Positions 14,328 through 24,012 of a DNA stretch of 24,742 nucleotides are shown piece after piece; within the stretch, counting starts at the first letter, position 1, and each line of letters starts with the position of its first letter. The DNA comes from a virus: IMG/VR virus record IMGVR_UViG_3300020051_000087, positions 1 through 24,742 of that record; one strand, 5' to 3'. The notes under the pieces are model-generated. The model searched no databases, was not told where the DNA came from, and saw only the letters and a program-made list of their open reading frames with translations. The position numbers were made by a program, and so were the translations under genes.

Positions 14328-14585
14328 ATGGGTATCAAAGAAACGCGCGATGAACTAATCGCTCTACTACAGGCTGGTGAAGTCACGATCAACTTCCAAA
14401 AAATGGATGAAACTGAGAGAGAATTTGTTGCTACATTAAAAGAAGGTGATGTTCCTGCTTTGACTGAAGCAAATGATTCTAACTCTGATAAAAAGAAGCG
14501 TGACGATCAGATTGTGGTATGGGTTCCTGCATTGCTTGGTTGGAGAACGGTCAAATTAGACCGAATCAACTCAATTACTGCTTGA
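14328..14585 (+). CDS. Small WYL_2-like (Sm/SH3-fold) phage protein
   Basis: The 85-residue protein has the outline LQAGEVTINFQKMDETEREFVATLKEGDVPA, an acidic and lysine linker, then IVVWVPALLGWRTVKLDRINSI. This is the pattern of the WYL_2 or Sm-like SH3 small beta-barrel proteins found next to primase and RNase H in many T4-like phages. Such barrels often bind nucleic acids or protein partners. It is driven by the consensus promoter just upstream. Its TGA stop is embedded in the TTGACA of the next promoter. The fold assignment is from memory of the motif; no direct function is known. Confidence 0.78.
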   Translation: MGIKETRDELIALLQAGEVTINFQKMDETEREFVATLKEGDVPALTEANDSNSDKKKRDDQIVVWVPALLGWRTVKLDRINSITA

Positions 14586-14610
14586 CATTAGACTCCTGTT
14601 ACTATATAAT
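14582..14610 (+). promoter_or_regulatory. Consensus sigma70-type promoter
   Basis: TTGACA at 14582-14587, a 17-base spacer and TATAAT at 14605-14610. The -35 box contains the TGA stop of the preceding gene. It drives the basic protein and RNase H genes, with AAAGGAG before the ATG at 14638. Confidence 0.88.
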
Positions 14611-14637
14611 ACATAGTAACAATCAAAGGAGTCCATC

Positions 14638-15153
14638 ATGGCACGACAAAGACAAGAACCAGAGCAGAAAAAGGTACGCAAAAAACGCAAGCCGATGACT
14701 GTTGAACAAAAGGCAGCTGCCGTTGAACGTCTAGCTAAGGCTAGAGCAGCGCGGCAAGCTGCTAATCCCCCTCAGTACAAAAACATTCACCCTAAGGTCC
14801 TTGCATTGGATGAAGACGATTCGCTCTCATTCAACAAGGTCCGTGAGTGGATCAAATTCAACAAAGATTTGCTATCATCTCACGGGCGCGAGATACGATC
14901 AGGAATAAAAGGTGCTGAAGCTAAGGCTGCATCTGTTTCTGCCTACATCAATGCTATGAACGCATATTTGCAAGGCGGTGATTGGATTGATAACTATTAC
15001 GGCAGAGACCGAGAGCATAGAATGACATGGCGATCTGTTGCTATGGCATACTACCCTGATGGCGAACCTAAACGTACTAAAGGTATCTATTATCCTGATG
15101 TAGGATATGTCTGGGGTGAGCAGCCTGAAGGTCTTGAGGAGTTAATGGCATGA
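14638..15153 (+). CDS. Basic conserved phage protein upstream of RNase H
   Basis: A 171-residue protein with a highly basic start (RQRQEPEQKKVRKKRKP) and an alanine- and lysine-rich helix (EQKAAAVERLAKARAARQ). The more structured second half includes KVREWIKFNKDLL, YINAMNAYLQGGDWIDNYYG and MAYYPDGEPKRTKGIYYPDVG. Proteins of this style are conserved beside RNase H in aquatic T4-like phages; no function is known to me. The basic region suggests contact with nucleic acid. It has its own consensus promoter and an ATGA overlap with RNase H, so the two are probably made together. Confidence 0.78.
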   Translation: MARQRQEPEQKKVRKKRKPMTVEQKAAAVERLAKARAARQAANPPQYKNIHPKVLALDEDDSLSFNKVREWIKFNKDLLSSHGREIRSGIKGAEAKAASVSAYINAMNAYLQGGDWIDNYYGRDREHRMTWRSVAMAYYPDGEPKRTKGIYYPDVGYVWGEQPEGLEELMA

Positions 15154-16028
15154 TAGTAGTAGATTTCAATCAAACCGCGATTTCGACCTTCATGGGCGAG
15201 ATTCGCGGCAGAACTGATGTTGAGGTAAATGTACCTCTGTTACGACACATGATTCTGAATGCCATACGTGGATACAAGACTAGGTTCGGCAATGAGTTTG
15301 GTGATCTTGTCATCGCATGCGACAATCGACACTATTGGCGCAAGAAAGTGTTCCCTTACTACAAGGCCTCCCGCAGAAAAGTGCGCGACGATTCAGGCTT
15401 TGATTGGCCTAGCATCTTTGAAGCACTGAACGCGATACGCAATGAGATAGATGAGTTCCTACCTTACCCTGTGATCGATGTAGATGGTGCTGAGGCTGAC
15501 GATGTTATCGGCGCACTAGCGGCGTACAGTCAAACCGCTAAAGAAGGCGTGTTGTTCGAGGAAGCTGAGCCGTTATTGATTATATCTGGTGACCATGACT
15601 TCAATCAATTGCAGAAGTGGCCAAACGTGCATCAATACTCACCTGTCAAGAAAAAGATGATAAAGATTGAAGAATCGGCACATGCTATTTTGATGGAACA
15701 TATCATCCAGGGTGACAAGGGTGATGGTGTGCCTAATATCTTGAGCGACGATGATACCTTTGTCACTGATAAGAGGCAAAAGCCAATTCGCAAGGTTCTA
15801 TTGGCTGAGTGGAAGAAGATGTCACCCGAGGATTTTGTGACAGGTGATATGGCTGCTGGCTATGTGCGCAACAAGCAACTTGTAGATCTAAGCATGACTC
15901 CAGCGGATATAAAGGAAGAGATTATATCGTCATATCAACGGCAACTAAATAAAGATAAGGGTCAACTCTTAAATTATTTTATTAAATACAAATTGAAAGG
16001 CATGATTGATGTCGCGGAGGATTTCTAA
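15150..16028 (+). CDS. rnh: RNase H / 5'-3' exonuclease, T4 Rnh family
   Basis: The enzyme removes RNA primers and flap ends during lagging-strand replication. Characteristic motifs are the first metal aspartate in VVDFNQ, ACDNRHYWRKKVFPYYKASR, the acidic pair region VDGAEADDVIG, IISGDHDFNQLQ, and the helix-three-turn-helix segment QGDKGDGVPNI. Length is 292 residues compared with 305 in T4. The start is coupled to the previous gene by ATGA. It shares a replication role with the primase at 3822 but has a separate promoter. All expected acidic residues seem present, so activity is likely. Confidence 0.93.
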   Translation: MIVVDFNQTAISTFMGEIRGRTDVEVNVPLLRHMILNAIRGYKTRFGNEFGDLVIACDNRHYWRKKVFPYYKASRRKVRDDSGFDWPSIFEALNAIRNEIDEFLPYPVIDVDGAEADDVIGALAAYSQTAKEGVLFEEAEPLLIISGDHDFNQLQKWPNVHQYSPVKKKMIKIEESAHAILMEHIIQGDKGDGVPNILSDDDTFVTDKRQKPIRKVLLAEWKKMSPEDFVTGDMAAGYVRNKQLVDLSMTPADIKEEIISSYQRQLNKDKGQLLNYFIKYKLKGMIDVAEDF

Positions 16029-16030
16029 GA

Positions 16031-16531
16031 ATGAAGTTTAGACAAGTGGACGAAGGGTTTGAATGGGTATTCAAAGCTGAAGGTGTAGACGCACAGGTAG
16101 CAAGGCTCAAGCAATGGGCAGAAAACAACCAGACCTTGGTGTCTATCGTGCGATGGGGTGTTGGAGCGCAAAAAGTTGACTGGGGGCTGCCCAGCGGTAT
16201 GCCAGATACAATCAAACTGGATGAAGATATCCCTGCAGGAATGAGTGATACAACTATCCAGATGGAATGGAGACGTATAAATGCATTCTCTGATCCTAAT
16301 GGCAATATGCAAAAGCTGGTTGATTGGAAGCGAGAGGCTAACTGGATGCAGGTATTGGAAGGCTTACATCATATGGAAGCTAAGTGGTTGACGGCTGCTA
16401 AAGACGGGACGCTGCTAGAGCTATGTCCTCAGTTAGAGACTCTGTTGCCCGCATTGGGTATAGAGGAGTATAATGTCCCTGTAAAAAAGAAACCGCGAAA
16501 GAAAAGGTCTCCAAAGAAATCAGTCGCCTAG
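16031..16531 (+). CDS. DUF6433-like conserved T4-type phage protein
   Basis: The 166-residue product has GMSDTTIQMEWRRINAFSDPNGNMQKL, then KREANWMQVLEGLHHMEAKWL and AKDGTLLELCPQL. I recognise this as the core of a family (DUF6433, from memory) found in T4-like phages near replication or late-regulation genes. The C-terminus is very basic (KKKPRKKRSPKKS). A GGAGG ribosome site lies 11 bases upstream of the ATG, within the RNase H end. Its TAG stop shares the palindrome CTAG with the stop of the minus-strand neighbour, so the two genes meet tail to tail. The role is unknown. Confidence 0.75.
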   Translation: MKFRQVDEGFEWVFKAEGVDAQVARLKQWAENNQTLVSIVRWGVGAQKVDWGLPSGMPDTIKLDEDIPAGMSDTTIQMEWRRINAFSDPNGNMQKLVDWKREANWMQVLEGLHHMEAKWLTAAKDGTLLELCPQLETLLPALGIEEYNVPVKKKPRKKRSPKKSVA

Positions 16532-17052
16532 TCAGGGCGATATGGGTCATAGTAACGACCCCATTGCCAATCCGCTGGTAGCTCAAATCCATCTAATTCA
16601 ACGAGATGCATTTTGCCAGTGGGTTCGACGCACCACTTTCGCTTAGATCTACTGTAGGCTGATTCACGAATCTTGCGTATTGTAGAAGGCTTATGCTTTC
16701 TACCGTACATAGGGTTAAACTCACCTCGACGGGTGCCTTTCATAGTCTTGGATACTTTATCTCGGAACTCCTGACTGCGCCCTTTCTGCACTGCTGGGTG
16801 ATTCTCTCCTAGCTTGGCTTCTCTAATACGTTGTCTTCCTTCTGGAGTGTGCCAAGCTGTCCTGTCTCTACAGCGGTCTACAATAGGAAGGTTTTGCTTG
16901 TTAGCAATGATCACATAGTCTCGCACACCTTCTACAGTGGACTGCTTGATGATCATCTCGCGTGGCTTGGGGACCTCTTGTAGGGTGTTTTCATCGACAA
17001 TCCAGTACTCGGATCGCGTCAGGAAGAGAAAAAACCTGCTTGCTCTAGCCAT
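16528..17052 (-). CDS. NUMOD3-repeat protein, homing-endonuclease relative
   Basis: This is the only minus-strand gene in the window. The 174-residue protein has two NUMOD3-like DNA-binding repeats, REAKLGENHPAVQKG and FNPMYGRKHKPSTIRKIRES. A basic C-terminus follows, ending in PADWQWGR, as in homing-endonuclease tails. The N-terminus (RFFLFLTRSEYWIVD..., about 70 residues) shows no clear GIY-YIG or HNH catalytic motif, so cleavage activity is doubtful. I chose the ATG at 17052 because a longer start at 17097 would include the late-type box at 17084-17091. It is transcribed toward the DUF6433-like gene. It is probably a mobile or formerly mobile gene. Confidence 0.7.
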   Translation of the reverse strand: MARASRFFLFLTRSEYWIVDENTLQEVPKPREMIIKQSTVEGVRDYVIIANKQNLPIVDRCRDRTAWHTPEGRQRIREAKLGENHPAVQKGRSQEFRDKVSKTMKGTRRGEFNPMYGRKHKPSTIRKIRESAYSRSKRKWCVEPTGKMHLVELDGFELPADWQWGRYYDPYRPD

Positions 17053-17083
17053 ATTGTATATACTCAAATCAATGGTTATTGCA

Positions 17084-17091
17084 TATTTATA
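17084..17091 (-). promoter_or_regulatory. T4-late-type promoter box, minus strand
   Basis: TATTTATA on the + strand reads TATAAATA on the minus strand, 31 bases before the NUMOD3 gene. It lies inside the first copy of the early promoter cassette, where the other copies have a perfect inverted repeat. Confidence 0.6.
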
Positions 17092-17125
17092 TAACAAAAG
17101 GATCTAAAAAAAGGCGAAAAAAAGG

Positions 17126-17154
17126 TTGCGAAGGGCACCAATATAGCATATAAT
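17126..17154 (+). promoter_or_regulatory. Early-type promoter in cassette 1
   Basis: TTGCGA, 17 bases, TATAAT. The -10 box is consensus and the -35 box deviates from TTGACA in the same way in two of the three cassettes (TTGCGA, TTGCGA, TTGCGT). Confidence 0.83.
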
Positions 17155-17186
17155 AGTATTTCAAAAGTCGAGTTGAGAGAGAAAAT

Positions 17187-17408
17187 ATGATTATATCAAC
17201 ACAGATAGCCCGAGCATTCAATAAAGCAGTAACCAGTACTGAGAACCTGTGGGAAGATGGATCAGTTAATTGGAACTATGTGGATGCAGATGTACACATG
17301 AACATGCTGGGCAAAGCGCCAGACAACTATACAGATCAGTTTGATTACCTGGCTGATTGCTACACTGGTTACGTCAGTCCAGCAGACCGCATAGTACAGC
17401 TCTGCTGA
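17187..17408 (+). CDS. Small phage protein, paralogue of the 22231 gene
   Basis: The 73-residue product begins MIISTQIARAFNKAV, continues NL..DGSVNWNYVDADVHMNM and ends in a hydrophilic tail with YLADCYTGY. The same plan (IST..., FN.AV, G...WNYVD.DV.M.M, D.LDYL) appears in the protein at 22231, so the two are paralogues. Small proteins with a WNYVDADV-like core are familiar from marine phages, without a known function. It is the first gene behind promoter cassette 1 and has the ribosome site GAGAGAGAAAA. Likely an early host-interaction protein; this is inference. Confidence 0.75.
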   Translation: MIISTQIARAFNKAVTSTENLWEDGSVNWNYVDADVHMNMLGKAPDNYTDQFDYLADCYTGYVSPADRIVQLC

Positions 17409-17472
17409 CTCTAGGCTGCTCCGAGTCTCAGGTTCTTAGAATTTCAATTGCTGCAATGAAAAGGCTTTAAAT

Positions 17473-17820
17473 ATGTACTACACTCACACGGTCAACCCTA
17501 TTGGATGCTTCACTGAGAAGGATCATGGACAGTACTTTGAGTACTCTAATAACACTGATAGGGTAGAGAACTGTAGCGAGTGGTGCTGCTTTCCTCATCT
17601 AGTGTGGGTCGGTGACACGGCTGGTGGTGCTCCTGGCTATCGTTATGCGACTGTCAAAAAGACCGTTGCTTACATCGTTGTGGACGAGGACGAGTCCGGT
17701 CGCCCAGTCATTGAGAAATGGCAACTAAAGAAAAACAACCCTTACGAGGTGCTCGAGGTGACTAACCCAGAGCTTATTCTGGACCCTTCTAAGCCTGCTT
17801 ATATGATCAGAACGTTATAA
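17473..17820 (+). CDS. Hypothetical small protein
   Basis: I do not recognise this 115-residue protein. It has a Cys/Trp-rich core (NCSEWCCFPHLVWVGD), then GGAPGYRYATVKKTVAYIVVD and an acidic, proline-containing C-terminus with PYEVLEVTNPELILD. The four cysteines could bind a metal, but the spacing (C-x3-CC and an early lone Cys) fits no family I know. AAAAGG precedes the ATG. Its TAA stop lies inside the inverted repeat that opens promoter cassette 2. Confidence 0.7.
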   Translation: MYYTHTVNPIGCFTEKDHGQYFEYSNNTDRVENCSEWCCFPHLVWVGDTAGGAPGYRYATVKKTVAYIVVDEDESGRPVIEKWQLKKNNPYEVLEVTNPELILDPSKPAYMIRTL

Positions 17821-17917
17821 GCATATAACAAAAGGTTCTAAGAAAACGTGATAAAAAGGTTGCGTTTAGGGTCAGATTGTCATATAATAGTAGTTCAAAA
17901 GTTGAGAGAGAAAAGTT
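17814..17917 (+). repeat. Promoter cassette, copy 2
   Basis: Begins with the perfect inverted repeat GTTATAAGCATATAAC (17814-17829), shared exactly with copy 3. AAAAGGTTCTAA, a purine-rich stretch, TTGCGT, a 17-base spacer, TATAAT and the shared leader TTCAAAAGTTGAGAGAGAAAA follow. It directly precedes the 43-residue ORF. Confidence 0.88.
17860..17888 (+). promoter_or_regulatory. Early-type promoter in cassette 2
   Basis: TTGCGT at 17860-17865, 17 bases, TATAAT at 17883-17888. The start of the 43-residue ORF is 30 bases further on. Confidence 0.83.
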
Positions 17918-18049
17918 ATGCGATATACGAAAAAAGAATTTCTTCAGTTGCTAGAAACAAAACTCAAGTCTGAGGTATGCCCTATTCGCATCGCACAACT
18001 TGAAATGAAGATATTCAAATTAAAGTTGGAGTCAGCAGTTATGGTGTAG
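17918..18049 (+). CDS. 43-residue helical microprotein
   Basis: A short ORF starting at the ATG directly behind promoter cassette 2, with GAGAGAGAAAAG as ribosome site. It encodes a lysine- and leucine-rich protein (KKEFLQLLETKLKSEV, then RIAQLEMKIFKLKLE), most likely one amphipathic helix pair, with no signal peptide. A probable terminator lies 14 bases after its stop. The dedicated promoter, ribosome site and terminator make it a believable gene, even though nothing resembles a known family. A small early host-takeover protein is a reasonable guess. Confidence 0.65.
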   Translation: MRYTKKEFLQLLETKLKSEVCPIRIAQLEMKIFKLKLESAVMV

Positions 18050-18062
18050 CGTTACGGCAGGA

Positions 18063-18103
18063 GCGCGGCTGTGTCGATACCGCGCATGACTGTTTCTTTT
18101 TTT
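18063..18103 (+). terminator. Probable intrinsic terminator
   Basis: GCGCGG (18063-18068) pairs with CCGCGC (18080-18085) around an 11-base loop, and a T-rich run follows (18093-18103). Seven bases between stem and T-run make it imperfect. Its place after the 43-residue ORF and before the next gene supports the call. Confidence 0.5.
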
Positions 18104-18123
18104 ATTGTTAGGATGTGAATTTT

Positions 18124-18507
18124 ATGGCTTATATATCAGCAACTGAAGTTAAGGCGATTCGTGAAGAACTCAAGAAGGAGTTCCCTAAGTATCGTTTCTC
18201 GGTTCGTAAATCCTCTGGCGGACTAGCCGTTTCCGTCTCTCTCACTAAAGGGCCCAAGGGTCTGCTAGAAACTGTCGGTGAGCAATTCACTGGCTCTGGT
18301 TTTCAGTCTATCAACCACTATCATACGAACATGTATGGCGAGTACAAGGGTATGTTTGACAAGATCCTTACCACTATCAAGTCTGCCCCTGCTAAAGTGG
18401 GTCGCGGTTGGTATGACAACTCCGACGCAATGGTCGATTACTTCGACACTGCTTTCTATATACATATGGAAGTAGGCCGATACGGCAAAGGGTACACAAC
18501 GGTTTAG
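18124..18507 (+). CDS. LPD29-like domain protein
   Basis: The 127-residue protein reads ISATEVKAIREELKKEFPKYRFSVRKSSGGLAVSVSLTKGP, then TVGEQFTGSGFQS and a small aromatic C-terminus. I recognise this as the LPD29 (large polyvalent protein-associated) domain, better known as a module of very long polyvalent proteins carried by phages and conjugative elements. Here it stands alone. The ATG at 18124 has AGGA 10 bases upstream, while GTG 18115 is too close. It lies after the terminator and shortly before the secreted-protein gene. The biochemical role is unknown. Confidence 0.7.
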   Translation: MAYISATEVKAIREELKKEFPKYRFSVRKSSGGLAVSVSLTKGPKGLLETVGEQFTGSGFQSINHYHTNMYGEYKGMFDKILTTIKSAPAKVGRGWYDNSDAMVDYFDTAFYIHMEVGRYGKGYTTV

Positions 18508-18515
18508 GAGATACA

Positions 18516-18878
18516 ATGAAAAAATTAGCAATTGCCGCGGTAATCATCGCGGCTTTAGGTGTTTCACAATCAGTAGAGGCTAGTAGCACTAGTGACAAGG
18601 TTGCTATCGGCGTTACTGGCATCCTAGTTGGTAAGTGGTGGAGCGACAGGCAGTCGTATAGTCCAGCGTACTCTGGCTATGAGGAATACTCTAGCATGGG
18701 TTATTACAGTTCCTCAGGAACATGGTATCCCTTTGATAAGCGGTACCCTCGTTTCAGATGTCGAGGCAACCGCATAGATTGTGCATACCAGATGGGTGTG
18801 TATGAGCGAGAACGCGCAGCCTTTAACGAAGCAAAGCGTCAGGCGTATGAGTGCGGTAGATGGGGCAGGTGTAAATGA
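18516..18878 (+). CDS. Secreted Tyr/Ser-rich small protein
   Basis: The 120-residue product starts with a typical Sec signal peptide: two lysines after Met, a hydrophobic AIAAVIIAALGV core, and a likely cleavage after VEA at about residue 22. The mature part contains a Tyr/Ser/Gly-rich stretch (YSPAYSGYEEYSSMGYYSSS) and a C-terminal basic region with four cysteines (RFRC, DCAYQ, YECGRWGRCK) that could form disulphides. It should reach the host periplasm. TTAGGAGA precedes the ATG, and ATGA couples it to the HAD gene. A role in host envelope change or superinfection exclusion is conceivable but unsupported. Confidence 0.78.
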   Translation: MKKLAIAAVIIAALGVSQSVEASSTSDKVAIGVTGILVGKWWSDRQSYSPAYSGYEEYSSMGYYSSSGTWYPFDKRYPRFRCRGNRIDCAYQMGVYERERAAFNEAKRQAYECGRWGRCK

Positions 18879-19483
18879 TTGTACTAACTGACATAGACGG
18901 ATGTGTACTTGACTGGGAAGAAGGCTTTACAGTATGGATGGATCATCGCGGTCACACCCAGGTTCCTGGATACAAGGAGCACTACGGCATCGACACTCGG
19001 TATGGCATGGAGAAGTCGTTGTCAAAGAAACTAGTCGAGCAATTCAACTCTTCGGCTGCAATAGGCTTTCTTCCTCCGCTCCGTGACGCGCAGTACTATA
19101 TCAAGCTGCTGCACGAAAAGCTACAGGTCAAGTTTGTAGCGGTCACTAGCCTAAGCGACGATCCTTATGCAAAGAAACTGAGAGAGCGCAACCTTGCTAA
19201 GTTATTTGGCGATAACACTTTCGAGGAAGTTATATGCTTGCCTTGTGGTGCTGACAAGGATGATATCCTCGAGGAGCTACAGGCAAAGTATGCTGACAGT
19301 ATCTGGATCGAGGACAAAACTACAAACGCTAGGGTAGGTGCTGCTCTAGGTTATGAAACTTTATTGATCGAGCATAAATATAACATGCACGACCAAGGAG
19401 ACTTCACTCTGGTGAAGGGCTGGGAAATGATTTACAACTATATAGAGGTAAACTATGAGCGTTTATGCACTGGAACAGTTTGA
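18875..19483 (+). CDS. HAD-superfamily phosphatase-like protein
   Basis: The 202-residue protein opens with the HAD motif I, LTDIDGCVLDW (Asp6, Asp8). AVTSLSDD gives the motif II position and IWIEDKTTNARVGAALGY resembles the motif IV acidic turn. The layout fits small phage HAD phosphatases such as 5'-nucleotidase or polynucleotide 3'-phosphatase relatives, which act on nucleotides or DNA ends. The substrate cannot be told from sequence. It overlaps the upstream gene by 4 bases (ATGA) and the downstream gene by 29. All expected acidic residues are there, so it is probably active. Confidence 0.8.
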   Translation: MIVLTDIDGCVLDWEEGFTVWMDHRGHTQVPGYKEHYGIDTRYGMEKSLSKKLVEQFNSSAAIGFLPPLRDAQYYIKLLHEKLQVKFVAVTSLSDDPYAKKLRERNLAKLFGDNTFEEVICLPCGADKDDILEELQAKYADSIWIEDKTTNARVGAALGYETLLIEHKYNMHDQGDFTLVKGWEMIYNYIEVNYERLCTGTV

Positions 19484-19676
19484 ATCTTTTTGTCGCAAGA
19501 TGTACCATAGGAACTGCGAGGAGCGCGGTGAATGGGGTGATGAATTATTGACCTACGAGGAATACACGAACAATAATCGTGGCTTCCTAATTCACATTTA
19601 CGAGCAACTGGAAGATGAGTCTTTCGGTGAAGCATTAAAAAAAGGGAGCCTTAAGGAATGGATGAGATCACTCTAA
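19455..19676 (+). CDS. Small hypothetical protein
   Basis: This 73-residue ORF starts 29 bases inside the HAD gene with GAGG as ribosome site. The protein is acidic and aromatic (YALEQFESFCRKMYHRNCEERGEWGDELLTYEEY), ends in FGEALKKGSLKEWMRSL and has no membrane segment. I do not recognise it. The overlaps at both ends and the ribosome sites support translation. Function unknown. Confidence 0.65.
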   Translation: MSVYALEQFESFCRKMYHRNCEERGEWGDELLTYEEYTNNNRGFLIHIYEQLEDESFGEALKKGSLKEWMRSL

Positions 19677-19846
19677 CTGCAATAACATTTACCTGCACTT
19701 TCATATCGTACTACACAGGCAGATACTTCGGTGGTGCCAAAGGTCAGGCTGTAGGCATGGCTATTGTTATGTGCTGGCTAAAACAGCGACCTGAATCTTG
19801 GGCGAACTGTGAGAAGGACTTCTACAGGGATATGAGAAACCTCTAA
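19658..19846 (+). CDS. Small membrane protein
   Basis: The 62-residue product has one hydrophobic N-terminal region (TLTAITFTCTFISYYTG, residues 4-20), a small Gly/Ala segment with AVGMAIVMCWL, and a polar C-terminus. It probably crosses or associates with the membrane. GGGAG lies 9 bases before the ATG, and the gene overlaps the preceding one by 19 bases. Its stop abuts the next ATG with no gap. No family is recognised. Confidence 0.65.
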   Translation: MDEITLTAITFTCTFISYYTGRYFGGAKGQAVGMAIVMCWLKQRPESWANCEKDFYRDMRNL

Positions 19847-20593
19847 ATGGAAGACTTTTATTATTACGCCAGTGGACAGGAAGTCGAACCTTATTCAGCT
19901 AAATTCATAGAGTCCGACACGGAACTACGGTACGAATTCAACAAGGAAAACGAACCAGAAGAGCTTCTAGCCAATGGCTGGGAAGAGATGTCTAACGGCG
20001 AGTATCCCTGGAGTATAACAAGTCCCCTTGATCATGACACCGTGGACATTAGGTATCGAATCAACAAACACGGATTCCGCTGCAATGAAATGCCCTTTGC
20101 TGCTGCACCACGCGCGGTGATCGCATTAGGGTCTAACATGGCTTTCGGTGTAGGCGTACCAGAACCCATGACTTGGCCTCATCTAGTGGCTAGTAAGCTA
20201 GGGCATCGTGCAATCACACTAGCTAAACCCAATTCGTCGCTAGAATCGCAGTATAGGCTGCTTCTCGCGTGGTTACCGCAGCTACAGTCGGAGTATGTAG
20301 TATTGCAGGAGCAGCATGACTCCTTGAGCCAATGGGAGCGATTTGAGGGTGAGGAGCTTATAAGCGAATTCATCCCAGGTGATGTGCGACCAATGGAAAA
20401 GATTAGACGGGACATGGTACTCAGGGCTATGCAATCATTGTGTAATCAGTTTAACTCTACCTTTATTCACATATCTCCTGAGGTAGAACTACTCGACGAG
20501 CCTGACTACGGCAGAGACCTAATGAGTCCTGGTAGAAGGCAGCATCGATATGTCTCATACCAAGTACTGAAGCGCATGGGGCAACTTGATTGA
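19847..20593 (+). CDS. SGNH-fold protein, apparently catalytically degenerate
   Basis: This 248-residue protein aligns by eye with its downstream neighbour over most of its length: L..GW, Y..N.HGFR, the VIALG strand, AFGVGV and TWPHLVA. In active SGNH/GDSL hydrolases the first block has a nucleophilic serine (GDS or GCS); here the block reads GSNM, with Asn97 at that position. The block V DxxH is DLMSPG, with Ser227 replacing histidine. Both catalytic residues therefore seem lost, so a binding or partner role is more likely than hydrolysis. It begins directly after the small membrane protein's stop and overlaps the second paralogue by 4 bases. Confidence 0.7.
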   Translation: MEDFYYYASGQEVEPYSAKFIESDTELRYEFNKENEPEELLANGWEEMSNGEYPWSITSPLDHDTVDIRYRINKHGFRCNEMPFAAAPRAVIALGSNMAFGVGVPEPMTWPHLVASKLGHRAITLAKPNSSLESQYRLLLAWLPQLQSEYVVLQEQHDSLSQWERFEGEELISEFIPGDVRPMEKIRRDMVLRAMQSLCNQFNSTFIHISPEVELLDEPDYGRDLMSPGRRQHRYVSYQVLKRMGQLD

Positions 20594-21387
20594 TAAAACG
20601 CCCTCGAAGTATGCTATTCGGATCTGAACCTTGTAACTACAACTCTGCATGGATGACAGGTGATACCGAGGAGATGTATCTCAACCAAGACCGTGATGCA
20701 CTGAAAACTCACGGCTGGGATAACAAGGCTAAAGCATACAGCCTAAATTACACTACCAATGAGTATGGCTTCAGGGAAGAGCGAGACTACCGACTCCAAG
20801 GCGACATGGCTCTAGGCTGTAGTTTCACATATGGCATGGGAGTGCATAAGGAAGACACTTGGCCTAGTATGTTGGGGGGACTGACTGATAGACACATCTA
20901 CAACTTCGGTATGCCTGGACATGGGCTGATGGGCGCGTTTCGTATAGCGATGCATTTTGCTCTACTGCTCAAGCCCAAGAATGTCTATATCCTAGCTCCA
21001 GGGTTTGATCGCATAGAGTATTTTTACCCTCACGATTCTACTTGGGCGCCACACGGGGGTTGGAGTGACCCGTCTGATGAAGTAGCCATGACAATGTTGA
21101 GTCAGGAGAATGCCTTTTTACTAAACTCCACGGCTCTATGTGGCATCAAGGGTATTTGTGACTCAATTGGTGCTAACATGTATATGATACACCCTGCTAT
21201 TGGAATGCAAGGGGGACACGCTATTGGCGTTATGGGTAGAGACCTAGTACACCCAGGTAGACTGGTTCAGAAGGAGTATGCCAAGCTGTTCGTTTCTGCT
21301 GACCCCTGGACATTCACACATCAAAACATCGGAGCGGCATTCACACTACCCGATCCTACGCACTCTCCTGTACTCTTTCCTGAGTAA
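20590..21387 (+). CDS. SGNH/GDSL-like hydrolase
   Basis: The 265-residue protein has the SGNH block I in ALGCSFTYGMGV (Ser78), block II-like NFGMPGHG, a long hydrophobic helix then LLKPKNVYILAPGFDRIEYF, and block V RDLVHPG with Asp218 and His221. A serine esterase or acetyl-hydrolase activity on glycans or lipids is likely, but the substrate is unknown. The start is a TTG at 20590 overlapping the upstream TGA by 4 bases, with GGGG 8 bases before it; ATG 20611 is an alternative. The first paralogue is immediately upstream. Promoter cassette 3 follows. Confidence 0.75.
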   Translation: MIKRPRSMLFGSEPCNYNSAWMTGDTEEMYLNQDRDALKTHGWDNKAKAYSLNYTTNEYGFREERDYRLQGDMALGCSFTYGMGVHKEDTWPSMLGGLTDRHIYNFGMPGHGLMGAFRIAMHFALLLKPKNVYILAPGFDRIEYFYPHDSTWAPHGGWSDPSDEVAMTMLSQENAFLLNSTALCGIKGICDSIGANMYMIHPAIGMQGGHAIGVMGRDLVHPGRLVQKEYAKLFVSADPWTFTHQNIGAAFTLPDPTHSPVLFPE

Positions 21388-21413
21388 ATCCACATCGCTG
21401 TATATACGAAAAA

Positions 21414-21523
21414 GTTATAAGCATATAACAAAAGGTTCTAAAAAAAGGTGAAATAAAGGTTGCGAAAGTCACCAATACCTCGTATAATAGTGTTTCAAAA
21501 GTTGAGAAGAAAAGGAAAATCAT
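21414..21523 (+). repeat. Promoter cassette, copy 3
   Basis: Opens with GTTATAAGCATATAAC (21414-21429), identical to copy 2. It continues AAAAGGTTCTAA, an A-rich stretch, TTGCGA, a 17-base spacer, TATAAT and leader TTTCAAAAGTTGAGA with AAAAGGAAAA before the ATG at 21524. It fills the only sizeable gap between 20590 and 24327. Confidence 0.88.
21460..21488 (+). promoter_or_regulatory. Early-type promoter in cassette 3
   Basis: TTGCGA at 21460-21465, 17 bases, TATAAT at 21483-21488. The spacer includes GTCACCAATA, close to the GGCACCAATA of cassette 1. Confidence 0.83.
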
Positions 21524-21724
21524 ATGACACTATCAGAAGGCTTAGTAGCTCAGATCTCAAAAGAGGCTCTGGAATTGATGGAAGGCGAGAAGCTAACTGC
21601 TCTTGTCCCTTCTTCATCGTGCTACTCCTCAATGCAGAGTGAGTATTGGTTAGAAGGTCGTCCTGCTGTTCAGGTCGCGATTCAACGTTTAACTGCTGAG
21701 TATTTCAGCGTGGAGAGTGTGTAA
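21524..21724 (+). CDS. Small hypothetical protein behind cassette 3
   Basis: A 66-residue protein without a recognised family. It has a helical start (GLVAQISKEALELMEGEKLTA), a Ser/Tyr stretch (SSSCYSSMQSEYW) and a helical end (AVQVAIQRLTAEYFS). There is no signal peptide or membrane segment. It is the first gene after promoter cassette 3, with AAAGGAAAA as ribosome site, and its stop overlaps the next ATG by one base (TAATG). The position suggests early expression. Confidence 0.7.
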   Translation: MTLSEGLVAQISKEALELMEGEKLTALVPSSSCYSSMQSEYWLEGRPAVQVAIQRLTAEYFSVESV

Positions 21725-22044
21725 TGGAAAAGCAACTACAAAAGCTGGTTGAGGAGATCAACAAGGACTACCTAAGATTCATGCCGCCCACGTCTGAGGT
21801 TCGTGAGAAGATGGCCTCTGAATTTGTAATGTCGCTTGAGATTCTTGAAGGTCGTAAGTACTACAAAATCATCAAGGGAGGTTCTGTGTGGGGCTTCGTT
21901 GTCAAGGTCGCGGACTCTAAGTTCAAGGCTGGAGATCTGCTCAAGGCAGCGTCCTGGGCTGCCCCTGCTCGTAACAAGGCTCGTGGCAACATCCTCGAGG
22001 GTGACTACAGCTGGGTTCGTTGGACTGGTCCCGAGTATCTTTAA
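21724..22044 (+). CDS. Small conserved-type phage protein
   Basis: The 106-residue product has a helical first half (QKLVEEINKDYLRFM). A beta-rich, basic second half follows: GRKYYKIIKGGSVWGFVVK, KFKAGDLLKAASWAAPARN and WVRWTGPEYL. I recall the KFKAGDILKAASW...ARGNI...WTGP pattern from small proteins of marine phages and some bacteria, without any assigned function. It is coupled to its upstream neighbour by TAATG. No catalytic motif is apparent. Confidence 0.72.
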   Translation: MEKQLQKLVEEINKDYLRFMPPTSEVREKMASEFVMSLEILEGRKYYKIIKGGSVWGFVVKVADSKFKAGDLLKAASWAAPARNKARGNILEGDYSWVRWTGPEYL

Positions 22045-22054
22045 GGAGAGTAGT

Positions 22055-22231
22055 ATGATTATATTTGAAGGTGATTTTGTACGCAGACAAGGACAATCGA
22101 AATGGTTGGAAGTTGTCTGCGTTGTGGATGAAATGCATATTCAACTCAGCGATGGGGCTTATGTAAGGGTAAGTGAGCGATCTATTAGTCAGGTCTTGAG
22201 TGCAACGGAATACAATGAGGAGGTGGCGTAA
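22055..22231 (+). CDS. Small beta-rich hypothetical protein
   Basis: This 58-residue ORF starts at an ATG with a good AAGGAGAG ribosome site. A longer reading beginning at 21836 is only an out-of-frame extension through the previous gene. The protein (FEGDFVRRQGQSKWLEVVCVVDEMHIQLSDGAYVRV in short strands) looks like a small SH3-like barrel. Its stop overlaps the next ATG by one base. No family was recognised. Confidence 0.65.
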   Translation: MIIFEGDFVRRQGQSKWLEVVCVVDEMHIQLSDGAYVRVSERSISQVLSATEYNEEVA

Positions 22232-22440
22232 TGAATATATCAACAGAGGTTGTAAATTCGTTCAACGAAGCAGTAATAAATCCTGAGAATATTCGGGACG
22301 GCTTAATCGATTGGAACTATGTGGACAGTGATGTGTTCATGGATATGAAAGATGCTGACCACCTGAGCGTCTCGGACATTAATGACCAACTCGATTATCT
22401 TATTACTCAATATGAACAGCAAAGTGAGGTAACGGTATAA
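22231..22440 (+). CDS. Small phage protein, paralogue of the 17187 gene
   Basis: This 69-residue protein reads MNISTEVVNSFNEAV, then GLIDWNYVDSDVFMDM and INDQLDYLITQY. It matches the 17187 protein in the ST...FN.AV, WNYVD.DV.M.M and D.LDYL positions, at similar lengths. The copies lie 5 kb apart, each within a unit started by a promoter cassette (cassette 1 or cassette 3). Start and stop overlap both neighbours by one base. Function is unknown. Confidence 0.75.
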   Translation: MNISTEVVNSFNEAVINPENIRDGLIDWNYVDSDVFMDMKDADHLSVSDINDQLDYLITQYEQQSEVTV

Positions 22441-22817
22441 TGTTTAAATTGTTTCAAATTCGTCCAAGCCGTGAGCAGTGTGACCGAGTCAATGAGTTAG
22501 GTTGGACTCAGGCGTTTGAGGAGATGCCAATCATTGAGGCATGGCAAGCGGTTGGGCGAGGTGGTTCTGAGGCTTATGTCACGGAATACGACCAGTATTT
22601 TGAGCATGTCGCGGACATCGCAGTGGATTCTTTGGAAGCGGCATTTGATGCGCATAACATGGAAGACGAGTCCAAGATCACTCGCTACCGACCACAGCAC
22701 AGCATGTCCGTTGGTGATGTTCTGGTGGATGAGTTTGGTGGTGTTCACATGTGCGACAATATCGGCTTCACTCAAATCATGTCCTCTTTCATCGGATCGA
22801 ATCAAAAGGTAGCCTAA
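22440..22817 (+). CDS. Small protein with YodL-like SxSVGDV motif
   Basis: The 125-residue protein starts FKLFQIRPSREQCDRVNELGW and ends with HSMSVGDVLVDEFGGVHMCDNIGFTQI. The SxSVGDV segment after an acidic helical part recalls YodL-like or related small proteins of plasmids and phages, in which a similar motif precedes a short C-terminal strand. The match is weak and from memory. GTAATG couples it to the previous gene. No catalytic residues can be named. Confidence 0.7.
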   Translation: MFKLFQIRPSREQCDRVNELGWTQAFEEMPIIEAWQAVGRGGSEAYVTEYDQYFEHVADIAVDSLEAAFDAHNMEDESKITRYRPQHSMSVGDVLVDEFGGVHMCDNIGFTQIMSSFIGSNQKVA

Positions 22818-22821
22818 GGGA

Positions 22822-23307
22822 ATGTTCTATATTCATGTGGAAGGCGGAACTCAAATGATGCGGCATCTAGCTCAAGATGCCGTTGTCTACCTCATGAGCA
22901 AAGAACTACCGAGAAAGCGGGTACTCAACCTGGATATCGAGATTAAAAATATTCGCAAAGAAGGCTGTCATGGCATGATAGATTCTTGGAAAGATCGAGG
23001 GAAACCTTACTCTATCATAGAAATAGACAATGGCAAGGACATGAGCCTTTATGATTTTATCGAAGTCCTCTGCCACGAATTCGTACACATGATACAGTTT
23101 CTAGACGGCAGATGGGTACAGAAGGAAAACAAAATATACTGGAAGGGGAGTGATCTCACGGATATGGCATACTACAAACAACCGTGGGAAAAAGAGGCAT
23201 TCGCCCGCCAGAAGCCATTAGCCAAATACATTCTAAGAGAAGAGCTAGGTATCACTCTCAAAGAGGCAAAACAGATTAAAGTCCGAGGCTATAAATACTT
23301 CACTTGA
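22822..23307 (+). CDS. SprT-like zinc metalloprotease domain protein
   Basis: The 161-residue protein has the zincin motif HEFVHMIQ (His85, Glu86, His89). About 35 residues later comes QPWEKEAFAR, supplying the probable third ligand (Glu123 or Glu125). The arrangement resembles SprT-like or small phage metallopeptidases. There is no signal peptide, so action in the cytoplasm is likely, on host or phage proteins. AAGGGA precedes the ATG. Its last codons include a late-type TATAAATA. Proteolytic activity is predicted from the ligands; the target is unknown. Confidence 0.75.
   Translation: MFYIHVEGGTQMMRHLAQDAVVYLMSKELPRKRVLNLDIEIKNIRKEGCHGMIDSWKDRGKPYSIIEIDNGKDMSLYDFIEVLCHEFVHMIQFLDGRWVQKENKIYWKGSDLTDMAYYKQPWEKEAFARQKPLAKYILREELGITLKEAKQIKVRGYKYFT
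23290..23297 (+). promoter_or_regulatory. T4-late-type promoter box
   Basis: TATAAATA inside the end of the metalloprotease gene, 24 bases before the next ATG. Because it is coding (Tyr-Lys-Tyr), chance is a real alternative. Confidence 0.4.
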
Positions 23308-23321
23308 CAAGGAATTCCTGA

Positions 23322-23585
23322 ATGGCACGCACAAACCGTAAGAAGCCTTATCAACCTAAGCGGAAACAATACATCTCGCTATCAACGCTCGTATCGGAAA
23401 TGACACAAGAAGGCGTATTCATCGACGTATTCGACGGTATCAGCATAGAGGCAAACGGCTATAGGTACGGCATGTATGATTCTACAGTATCAATGGAACC
23501 CGTGACCGCTGTTGAAGAGGTGATCGTAGCCAAGGTAAAGCCTAAGAATAAACCCAAGAAAGCCCCAAAAAAGAAGGATCAATGA
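23322..23585 (+). CDS. Small basic hypothetical protein
   Basis: This 87-residue protein is basic at both ends (ARTNRKKPYQPKRKQ and a C-terminal KPKNKPKKAPKKKD). The middle is short and beta-rich (GVFIDVFDGISIEANGYRYGMY). The lysine-proline tail suggests nucleic-acid or membrane contact. An AAGGAATT ribosome site precedes it, and iscU begins one base after its stop, so co-translation is likely. No family was recognised. Confidence 0.68.
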   Translation: MARTNRKKPYQPKRKQYISLSTLVSEMTQEGVFIDVFDGISIEANGYRYGMYDSTVSMEPVTAVEEVIVAKVKPKNKPKKAPKKKDQ

Positions 23586-23586
23586 T

Positions 23587-24012
23587 ATGGCATACAGCGA
23601 TAAAGTAATGGATCACTATGACAATCCACGCAACGTCGGTAAGCTAGACGCTGCGGATCCTAATGTAGGTACGGGTATGGTAGGCGCACCTGCTTGTGGT
23701 GACGTAATGAGACTTCAGATTGTGGTTGAGGAAGGTATCATCACTGACGCTAAATTCAAAACGTATGGATGCGGAAGCGCAATCGCTTCATCCAGCCTGT
23801 TAACGGAATGGGTCAAGGGAAGGACTTTGGAGTCTGCATATACAATAAAGAATACGGAGATCGCAGAAGAACTAGCCCTCCCACCAGTAAAGATACATTG
23901 TAGCGTATTAGCGGAAGATGCTATCAAGTCAGCAATAGATGACTATCAGTTAAAACAGAATACGCTCAAGCAAGATGCGGTTGATACATGGATGAGGGAT
24001 ATCAGATGGTAA
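23587..24012 (+). CDS. iscU: Iron-sulphur cluster scaffold IscU
   Basis: IscU is the scaffold on which IscS and frataxin partners build [2Fe-2S]/[4Fe-4S] clusters before transfer to client proteins. The 141-residue protein matches bacterial IscU closely: NPRNVG, GMVGAPACGDVMRLQI (Cys37, Asp39), KTYGCGSAIASSS (Cys62), and LPPVKIHCSVLAEDAIK (LPPVK chaperone site, His104, Cys105). Every cluster ligand and the HscA recognition site are intact. The last 25 residues extend beyond the usual end, with DTWMRDIRW. No IscS, HscA/B or ferredoxin is seen, so it would depend on host partners. AAGGA precedes the ATG. It is flanked on both sides by phage genes. Confidence 0.96.
   Translation: MAYSDKVMDHYDNPRNVGKLDAADPNVGTGMVGAPACGDVMRLQIVVEEGIITDAKFKTYGCGSAIASSSLLTEWVKGRTLESAYTIKNTEIAEELALPPVKIHCSVLAEDAIKSAIDDYQLKQNTLKQDAVDTWMRDIRW

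Follow-up and report, generated by a model that had tools for sequence, protein, structure and literature searches.

A helically phased upstream element in repeated promoter cassettes of a marine T4-like phage and its relatives

The common view of early phage promoters is that near-perfect core boxes win them the host polymerase. In the IMG/VR record IMGVR_UViG_3300020051_000087, a phage fragment of 24,742 bp that was analysed over its whole length (hereafter the window), three co-oriented promoter cassettes, each followed by a run of small genes, resemble each other far beyond the -35 and -10 boxes. The phage is, judged from its genes, a T4-like marine phage. Why is so much sequence upstream of these promoters conserved, and what reads it? 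An initial annotation of the window had proposed a bound factor or a leader RNA function, a co-ordinated set of small early genes, and recombination between the copies. Here, we describe an upstream element that recurs in many phages at distances from the -10 box which differ by whole turns of the DNA helix.

The cassettes and their upstream element

The cassettes lie on the plus strand at approximately 17075-17186, 17814-17917 and 21414-21523. In a blastn comparison of copy 1 with the window only the other two copies matched (one at E=7.5e-26, 84%, the other at E=7e-17, 78%). Together with the sequence itself this bears out the annotation, which had placed three copies here with an inverted repeat perfect in two. 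The repeat, GTTATAAGCATATAAC, is perfect at 17814-17829, where it overlaps the stop codon of an open reading frame (ORF) of 115 amino acids (aa), and at 21414-21429; copy 1 has a degenerate version (GTTATTGCATATTTATATAAC, 17075-17095) that lacks an intact left arm. Copies 2 and 3 share AAAAGGTTCTAA, the counterpart of which in copy 1 is AAAAGGATCTAA. Reading the sequence also confirmed the -35 hexamers TTGCGA, TTGCGT and TTGCGA in copies 1, 2 and 3, with a spacer of exactly 17 bp between each of them and TATAAT (17126-17154, 17860-17888 and 21460-21488). The leaders behind them read TTTCAAAAGTCGAGTTGAGA (17155-17186), GTTCAAAAGTTGAGA (17889-17917) and TTTCAAAAGTTGAGA (21489-21523). When TATAAT is set at -12 to -7, the -35 hexamer begins at -35, the inverted repeat has its centre at -73.5 in cassettes 2 and 3, and an 18-bp block, TATAACAAAAGG[TA]TCTAA, occupies -71 to -54 (TATAACAAAAGGATCTAA at 17090-17107; TATAACAAAAGGTTCTAA at 17824-17841 and at 21424-21441).

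A search of relatives for the motif, as the annotation had suggested, recovered the same three copies in near-identical relatives (L009, which is G001, and L010) and two more, c4 and c5, on contigs from the same samples. The 18-bp block is near-invariant in the window clade and c4/c5, eight of twelve alleles being identical and the rest carrying one or two changes, and within the cassettes it is better conserved than the stretch from -35 to -11. All block sites with up to two mismatches in the T4-like records examined stand upstream of a promoter. Cousins with 65-84% exonuclease identity have promoters of the same layout (A-tract, TTGACA/T, TATAATAGT and AAATTGAGAGAG leader) at matching places, behind the endonuclease-like gene and ahead of the LPD29 gene; the upstream block is absent from them.

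The core of the element can be written TATAAC-AAAA-NNN-TCTAA and is often extended leftward to the palindrome GTTATA-N4-TATAAC. A scan of IMG/VR for TTATAAGCATATAACAAA returned 84 stretches, most of those inspected being followed by a TATAAT promoter and a small ORF, and the element recurs in dozens of uncultured T4-like phages. The consensus of 46 non-redundant promoters is AAAAAGTTATAAGCATATAACAAAATNNTNTAAAAAA. In these, TCTAA (+23 to +27), which lies outside the search pattern, is conserved to 93-97% at four of its five bases (T, T, A and A). The -35 boxes are often weak (TTGCGA, TGTACA, TATACA) beside a near-perfect -10. A scan for TATAACAAAAGGNTCTAA was discarded; many of its matches were due to chance or coding, without a promoter at the right distance, and the spacings of unrelated matches scattered.

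Among cultured phages, BLAST with the inverted repeat and element matched several phages of Pseudoalteromonas as well as Vibrio phage 1.262.O (E=3e-5). The palindrome precedes promoter-like sites at in-phase distances in the latter and in Pseudoalteromonas phages C7 and SL25; phages HS5 and PS_L5 show, by eye, a like layout with copies carrying one to two mismatches. Several Pseudoalteromonas copies have a wider symmetry through the flanks AAATAAC[AG]TTT and AAA[CT]GTTATTT. Intergenic palindromes extended in this way, AAATAAC[AG]TTTA-GYTATA-N4-TATARC-TAAA[CT]GTTATTT, occur in phage HS5 (L346; 4576, 15575, 16967 and 30555) and in H105/1 (L339; 402), and are apparently the same operator in temperate-looking phages. 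BLAST of the element against plasmids gave low-score matches only. A description of the element was not found in the literature, and a search with the palindrome string returned nothing.

Spacing in whole helical turns

The distance between element and promoter is not constant. From block to -35 it measures 36 bp, and 46 bp in most c4 copies (36 bp in c4 of L012 versus 46 bp in that of L170). In a set collected by the inverted repeat, the distances from repeat start to -10 were 48/49, 58/59, 68/69 or 79, and 56 non-redundant promoter clusters gave a best period of 10.1 bp (R=0.75, p~1e-14). IMG/VR was also scanned for the right half by itself, with the pattern ATATAACAAAANNNTCTAAA, which leaves the full palindrome optional. 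Of the 97 sites listed, 76 had a promoter and an ORF, and 75 of these 76 were in phase, at 58/59, 68-70, 79 or 89 when expressed from the start of the inverted repeat (the distance from TATAAC plus 10 bp). The left arm is intact in 43 of the 76 and missing in 33 (43%), as it is in cassette 1. The annotation's inverted repeat, perfect in copies 2 and 3, is thus not the invariant part, which is the right half with TCTAA.

For 40 non-redundant promoters of a similar set, TATAAC and TATAAT were separated by 48/49 (22 promoters), 58-60 (12), 69 (4) or 79 bp (2), with a Rayleigh R=0.95 at a best period of 10.2 bp (p~2e-16) and half-turn spacings in none. These p-values overstate the independence of the promoters, because possession of the element was the criterion for choosing the loci, and most of these fall into a single, loosely linked T4-like superlineage (two or more shared proteins chain 64 of 71 carrier loci); the missing half-turn spacings are still clear. 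Control anchors were flat, namely TATAACAAAA without TCTAA (n=10, p=0.14) and TCTAAA without TATAAC (n=178, p=0.5). Related promoters differ by ten-bp steps, as in L330 (59) versus L265 (69) and in L242 and L227 (69) versus L230 (79). In the 165-kb relative G013, where the promoter at the c3 position has a weak element match (14/18), TATAAC stands 48 bp before TATAAT, in phase.

A proposed upstream activator and its alternatives

We hold, with moderate confidence, that the cassettes are early phage promoters of the sigma70 type, in which a near-perfect -10 box and a weak -35 box are combined with an upstream activation element, and that this element is the binding site of a sequence-specific protein. 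The bound factor of the initial annotation finds good support in an element conserved across many phages and in a distance quantised in helical turns. Such a protein would bind at about -71 in the window, on the DNA face toward RNA polymerase, and would touch the enzyme at its alpha C-terminal domains or its back, in the manner of a class I activator, while the phased A-tracts between element and -35 would bend the DNA and so aid the contact. The combination of turn-by-turn spacing, a sequence-specific site, an often weak -35 and a near-perfect -10 is the mark of an activator that sits upstream and touches RNA polymerase, as in class I activation. Class I sites, e.g. those of CRP, are found at -61.5, -72.5 and -82.5. 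The cassettes resemble such promoters in their upstream palindromic site stepped by whole turns and in their weak -35; they differ from CRP promoters in that the sequence is not a CRP site and that the repeats are centred at about -53.5, -63.5, -73.5 and -83.5.

The factor would probably be host-encoded, because the genes are probably early and the palindrome is common to unrelated phages. The element also seems to track hosts and not phage descent, given that C7, SL25, 1.262.O, HS5 and PS_L5 carry the palindrome or near copies of it and five other cultured phages lack a good match. That one transcription factor of marine, probably gammaproteobacterial, hosts might serve several unrelated phage groups as main early-gene activator, through a common helically phased operator, is a tentative proposal that we regard as possible but doubtful. 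A nucleotide-responsive (CRP/FNR-like) protein is one candidate, since a phage adenylate/guanylate cyclase gene is present at about 25 carrier or related loci at least, in several of them with the operator right behind it. In L382, L370, L284, L294, L367, L408, L365 and L403 the element lies some 15 bases past the end of this gene (phrog_35576, with homologues in HTVC008M and Melnitz). Their adjacency may be mere conserved gene order, and the cyclase gene was not seen on the contigs of the window phage.

Several points weigh against the activator reading, beside the kinship of the loci mentioned above. The promoters were called by consensus, and two of the IMG/VR scans cover the matches listed, so that counts resting on them are minima. 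A simple dimer site is not universal, the left arm being often missing. A good match to the element was not found in the cultured phages C48C1, Melnitz, HTVC008M, S-WAM1 and Nitrincola 1M3-16, which include T4-like phages of SAR11, OM43 and Synechococcus. One scan of genome contigs for the motif gave five scattered matches, with no Gammaproteobacteria among the titles.

Could RNA polymerase itself read an UP element and intrinsically curved DNA, so that no dedicated factor is needed? We consider this rather unlikely, even if the cassettes do share features with UP elements and phased A-tract promoters. All three have an A-rich tract at -44 to -38, like an UP proximal subsite, with A-tracts at alpha C-terminal domain positions and a recurrence of A-tracts about every 11 bp; bend prediction places the DNA upstream of cassette 1 at the 100th percentile of the window and that upstream of cassette 3 at the 98.6th, and T4-like early promoters are usually A-rich at -40 to -44 (PMC1524935). 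Cassette 2, however, reaches only the 89th percentile, and several spacers of 69 and 79 (L230, L274) are not A-tract repeats. Moreover, an additional sequence-specific block is conserved upstream, and the strict conservation of ordered, non-A/T positions (TATAAC, TCTAA, the GTTATA arm) is unexpected for an UP element; curvature alone fails to account for the conserved TATAAC and TCTAA. The palindromic shape, the repeated copies per genome and the extended intergenic palindromes of temperate-looking Pseudoalteromonas phages would also suit an operator at which a repressor or phage-encoded regulator shuts off or times early promoters. This appears distinctly unlikely to us, as repressor sites normally overlap the promoter, and whole-turn steps between about -51 and -91 fit polymerase contact better. 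A phage protein would also be hard to share between unrelated phages, and searches of related records, made with no positive control, brought up neither AsiA (PF09010) nor the MotA C-domain (PF09158).

Duplication of ten-bp A-tract units, together with recombination between copies, might have produced the ten-base steps as a mere by-product, with no constraint on phase. Recombination between copies is indeed seen, and some longer spacers resemble added A-tract units (L265, L378). Yet the 40 non-redundant promoters hold no half-turn spacing, repeat-free long spacers stay in phase (L230, L274, L285) and the phase is common to unrelated phages, which makes this origin very improbable. The leader-RNA function of the initial annotation, as a riboregulator or translational operator, we regard as close to negligible. 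A purine-rich leader of the AAATTGAGAGAG type does precede start codons lineage-wide, but the leaders of 29-35 nt fold no better than shuffles (z = 0.5, 1.1 and 0.5) and vary between cassettes, which the upstream element does not.

Some known signals were compared and set aside. The inverted repeat is not a terminator: no stem-loop with a T-run stands beside the cassettes, and the repeat region of cassette 2 does not fold as RNA. The MotA box of middle promoters is TGCTTtA 11-13 bp before -10. The cassettes lack it at that spacing, TGCTTTA being found, by reading, only in c5 and 15 bp before -10; matches to motA and asiA were absent from the incomplete genomes G001, G002 and G013, again with no positive control. 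The Zur box, GTTATA-N1-TATAAC, has identical half sites but the wrong spacing, and the consensus sites of CRP, FNR, Fur/PerR, ArcA and Fis do not fit the element.

T4 early promoters have been described as composed of several elements, UP elements and further consensus stretches among them (PMC2988021, PMC1524935). The cassettes are like promoters of this type in their strong -10 with a 17-bp spacer, in the A-rich -40 to -44 region, in conservation past the core boxes and in the short early-type genes downstream on one strand. Unlike them, they have TTGCG[AT] as -35 and neither GTTTAC nor TTGACA (lineage cousins have TTGACA/T), lack TGn before -10 (in cassette 2 by reading) and carry an extra element of 18-28 bp at -71, helically phased, of which no description was found for T4. 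T4-type phages also reportedly possess mobile regulatory cassettes called PeSL, attributed to Arbiol (2010) and Comeau (2014). Like these, the present promoter cassettes are repeated at several loci (two on contigs from the same samples, beside the three of the window) and form seams for small-gene exchange, but no stem-loop terminator adjoins the promoter; the PeSL concept is summarised in PMC4503421.

An upstream operator with turn-by-turn spacing and an often weak -35 is thus common to many marine T4-like phages and to unrelated Pseudoalteromonas and Vibrio phages. Should a protein of the host bind to this operator, these phages would share an early dependency that possibly determines host range, and the element would be a sequence tag linking uncultured phages to their hosts.

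Gene exchange and genes behind the cassettes

The annotation had also supposed that recombination between copies shuffles the neighbouring genes, and this is supported by mosaics and by gene swaps on both sides. In cassette c4 of L049, 57 of 59 interior positions match c5 (two differences), and the flanks match c4. Cassette 1 of L096 combines c1 flanks, a c2-like spacer and a c3/c5-like core. With the upstream gene unchanged, cassette 1 is followed by a 73-aa ORF in the window (17187-17408, plus strand) and near relatives, a 53-aa ORF in L018 and L056, a 56-aa ORF in L097, or directly by the 115-aa ORF (phrog_23785; 17473-17820, plus strand, in the window) in L096. The gene upstream of c4 differs between L012/L033 and L028/L170, and sequence identity begins at TTATAAC. 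Window cassettes 2 and 3 and c4 of L170 agree in all ten bases left of TATAAC, which are unrelated in orthologous c4 copies. The cassettes are recombination seams, or homology blocks, for the exchange of small genes, so that regulation and modular evolution can be studied together.

Five or more cassettes per genome are likely, a figure put together across contigs: c4/c5-type and window-type contigs occur together, by contig name, in samples 3300018410, 3300022907, 3300040815, 3300031162 and 3300035487 (L095 and L096 are among them), and G013 joins exonuclease (70%) and polymerase (66%) in one genome. The c4/c5 contigs, which encode a T4-type gp43 polymerase, UvsX and clamp loader, probably belong to one phage population with the window. 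The window itself encodes a 5'-3' exonuclease/RNase H (15150-16028) with about 46% identity to the T4-type RNase H of Synechococcus phage S-WAM1, Methylophilales phage Melnitz and Stenotrophomonas phage DLP6, together with nrdA/nrdB, thyX, glutaredoxin and NifU-like genes.

Behind cassette 2 (17918-21387, plus strand) follow a 43-aa ORF, an LPD29-domain protein (phrog_10415), a 120-aa ORF, a HAD-like protein (phrog_420) and ORFs of 73, 62, 248 and 265 aa; behind cassette 3 (21524-24012, plus strand) there are ORFs of 66, 106 (phrog_5014), 58, 69, 125, 161 and 87 aa and then the NifU-like gene. Small ORFs on one strand in a T4-type layout make a co-ordinated set of small, probably early genes plausible. 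The ORFs at 17187-17408, behind cassette 1, and 22231-22440, in the run of cassette 3, are paralogues with 45% identity. The 248- and 265-aa ORFs (19847-20593 and 20590-21387) are neighbouring paralogues with about 21% identity, kept across the lineage, and a GSN/GCS...G.G motif seen by eye suggests SGNH-hydrolase-like proteins. A homing-endonuclease-like gene (16528-17055) lies on the opposite strand immediately ahead of cassette 1 and occupies the same place in relatives (68-100% identity). Behind the 43-aa ORF of cassette 2, a GC-rich hairpin followed by a T-rich stretch (18056-18105) folds no better than shuffles.

Farther upstream, at 14582-14640, a sigma70-type promoter (TTGACA-17-TATAAT) lies within a hairpin whose 3' arm is the Shine-Dalgarno sequence of the ORF at 14638-15153. 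The hairpin is kept in orthologues with altered sequence (z of -2.2 to -5.5 in eight of nine tested). It looks like T4-style sequestration of the ribosome site in read-through mRNA, which transcripts from the internal promoter would escape. In G013 (35457, plus strand, and 134894, minus strand) and in L144 (upstream of 18156), early-type promoters are followed by a conserved AGGGTGTGT..CCCTTTAAAGAATA stretch without obvious ORF, a candidate small RNA.

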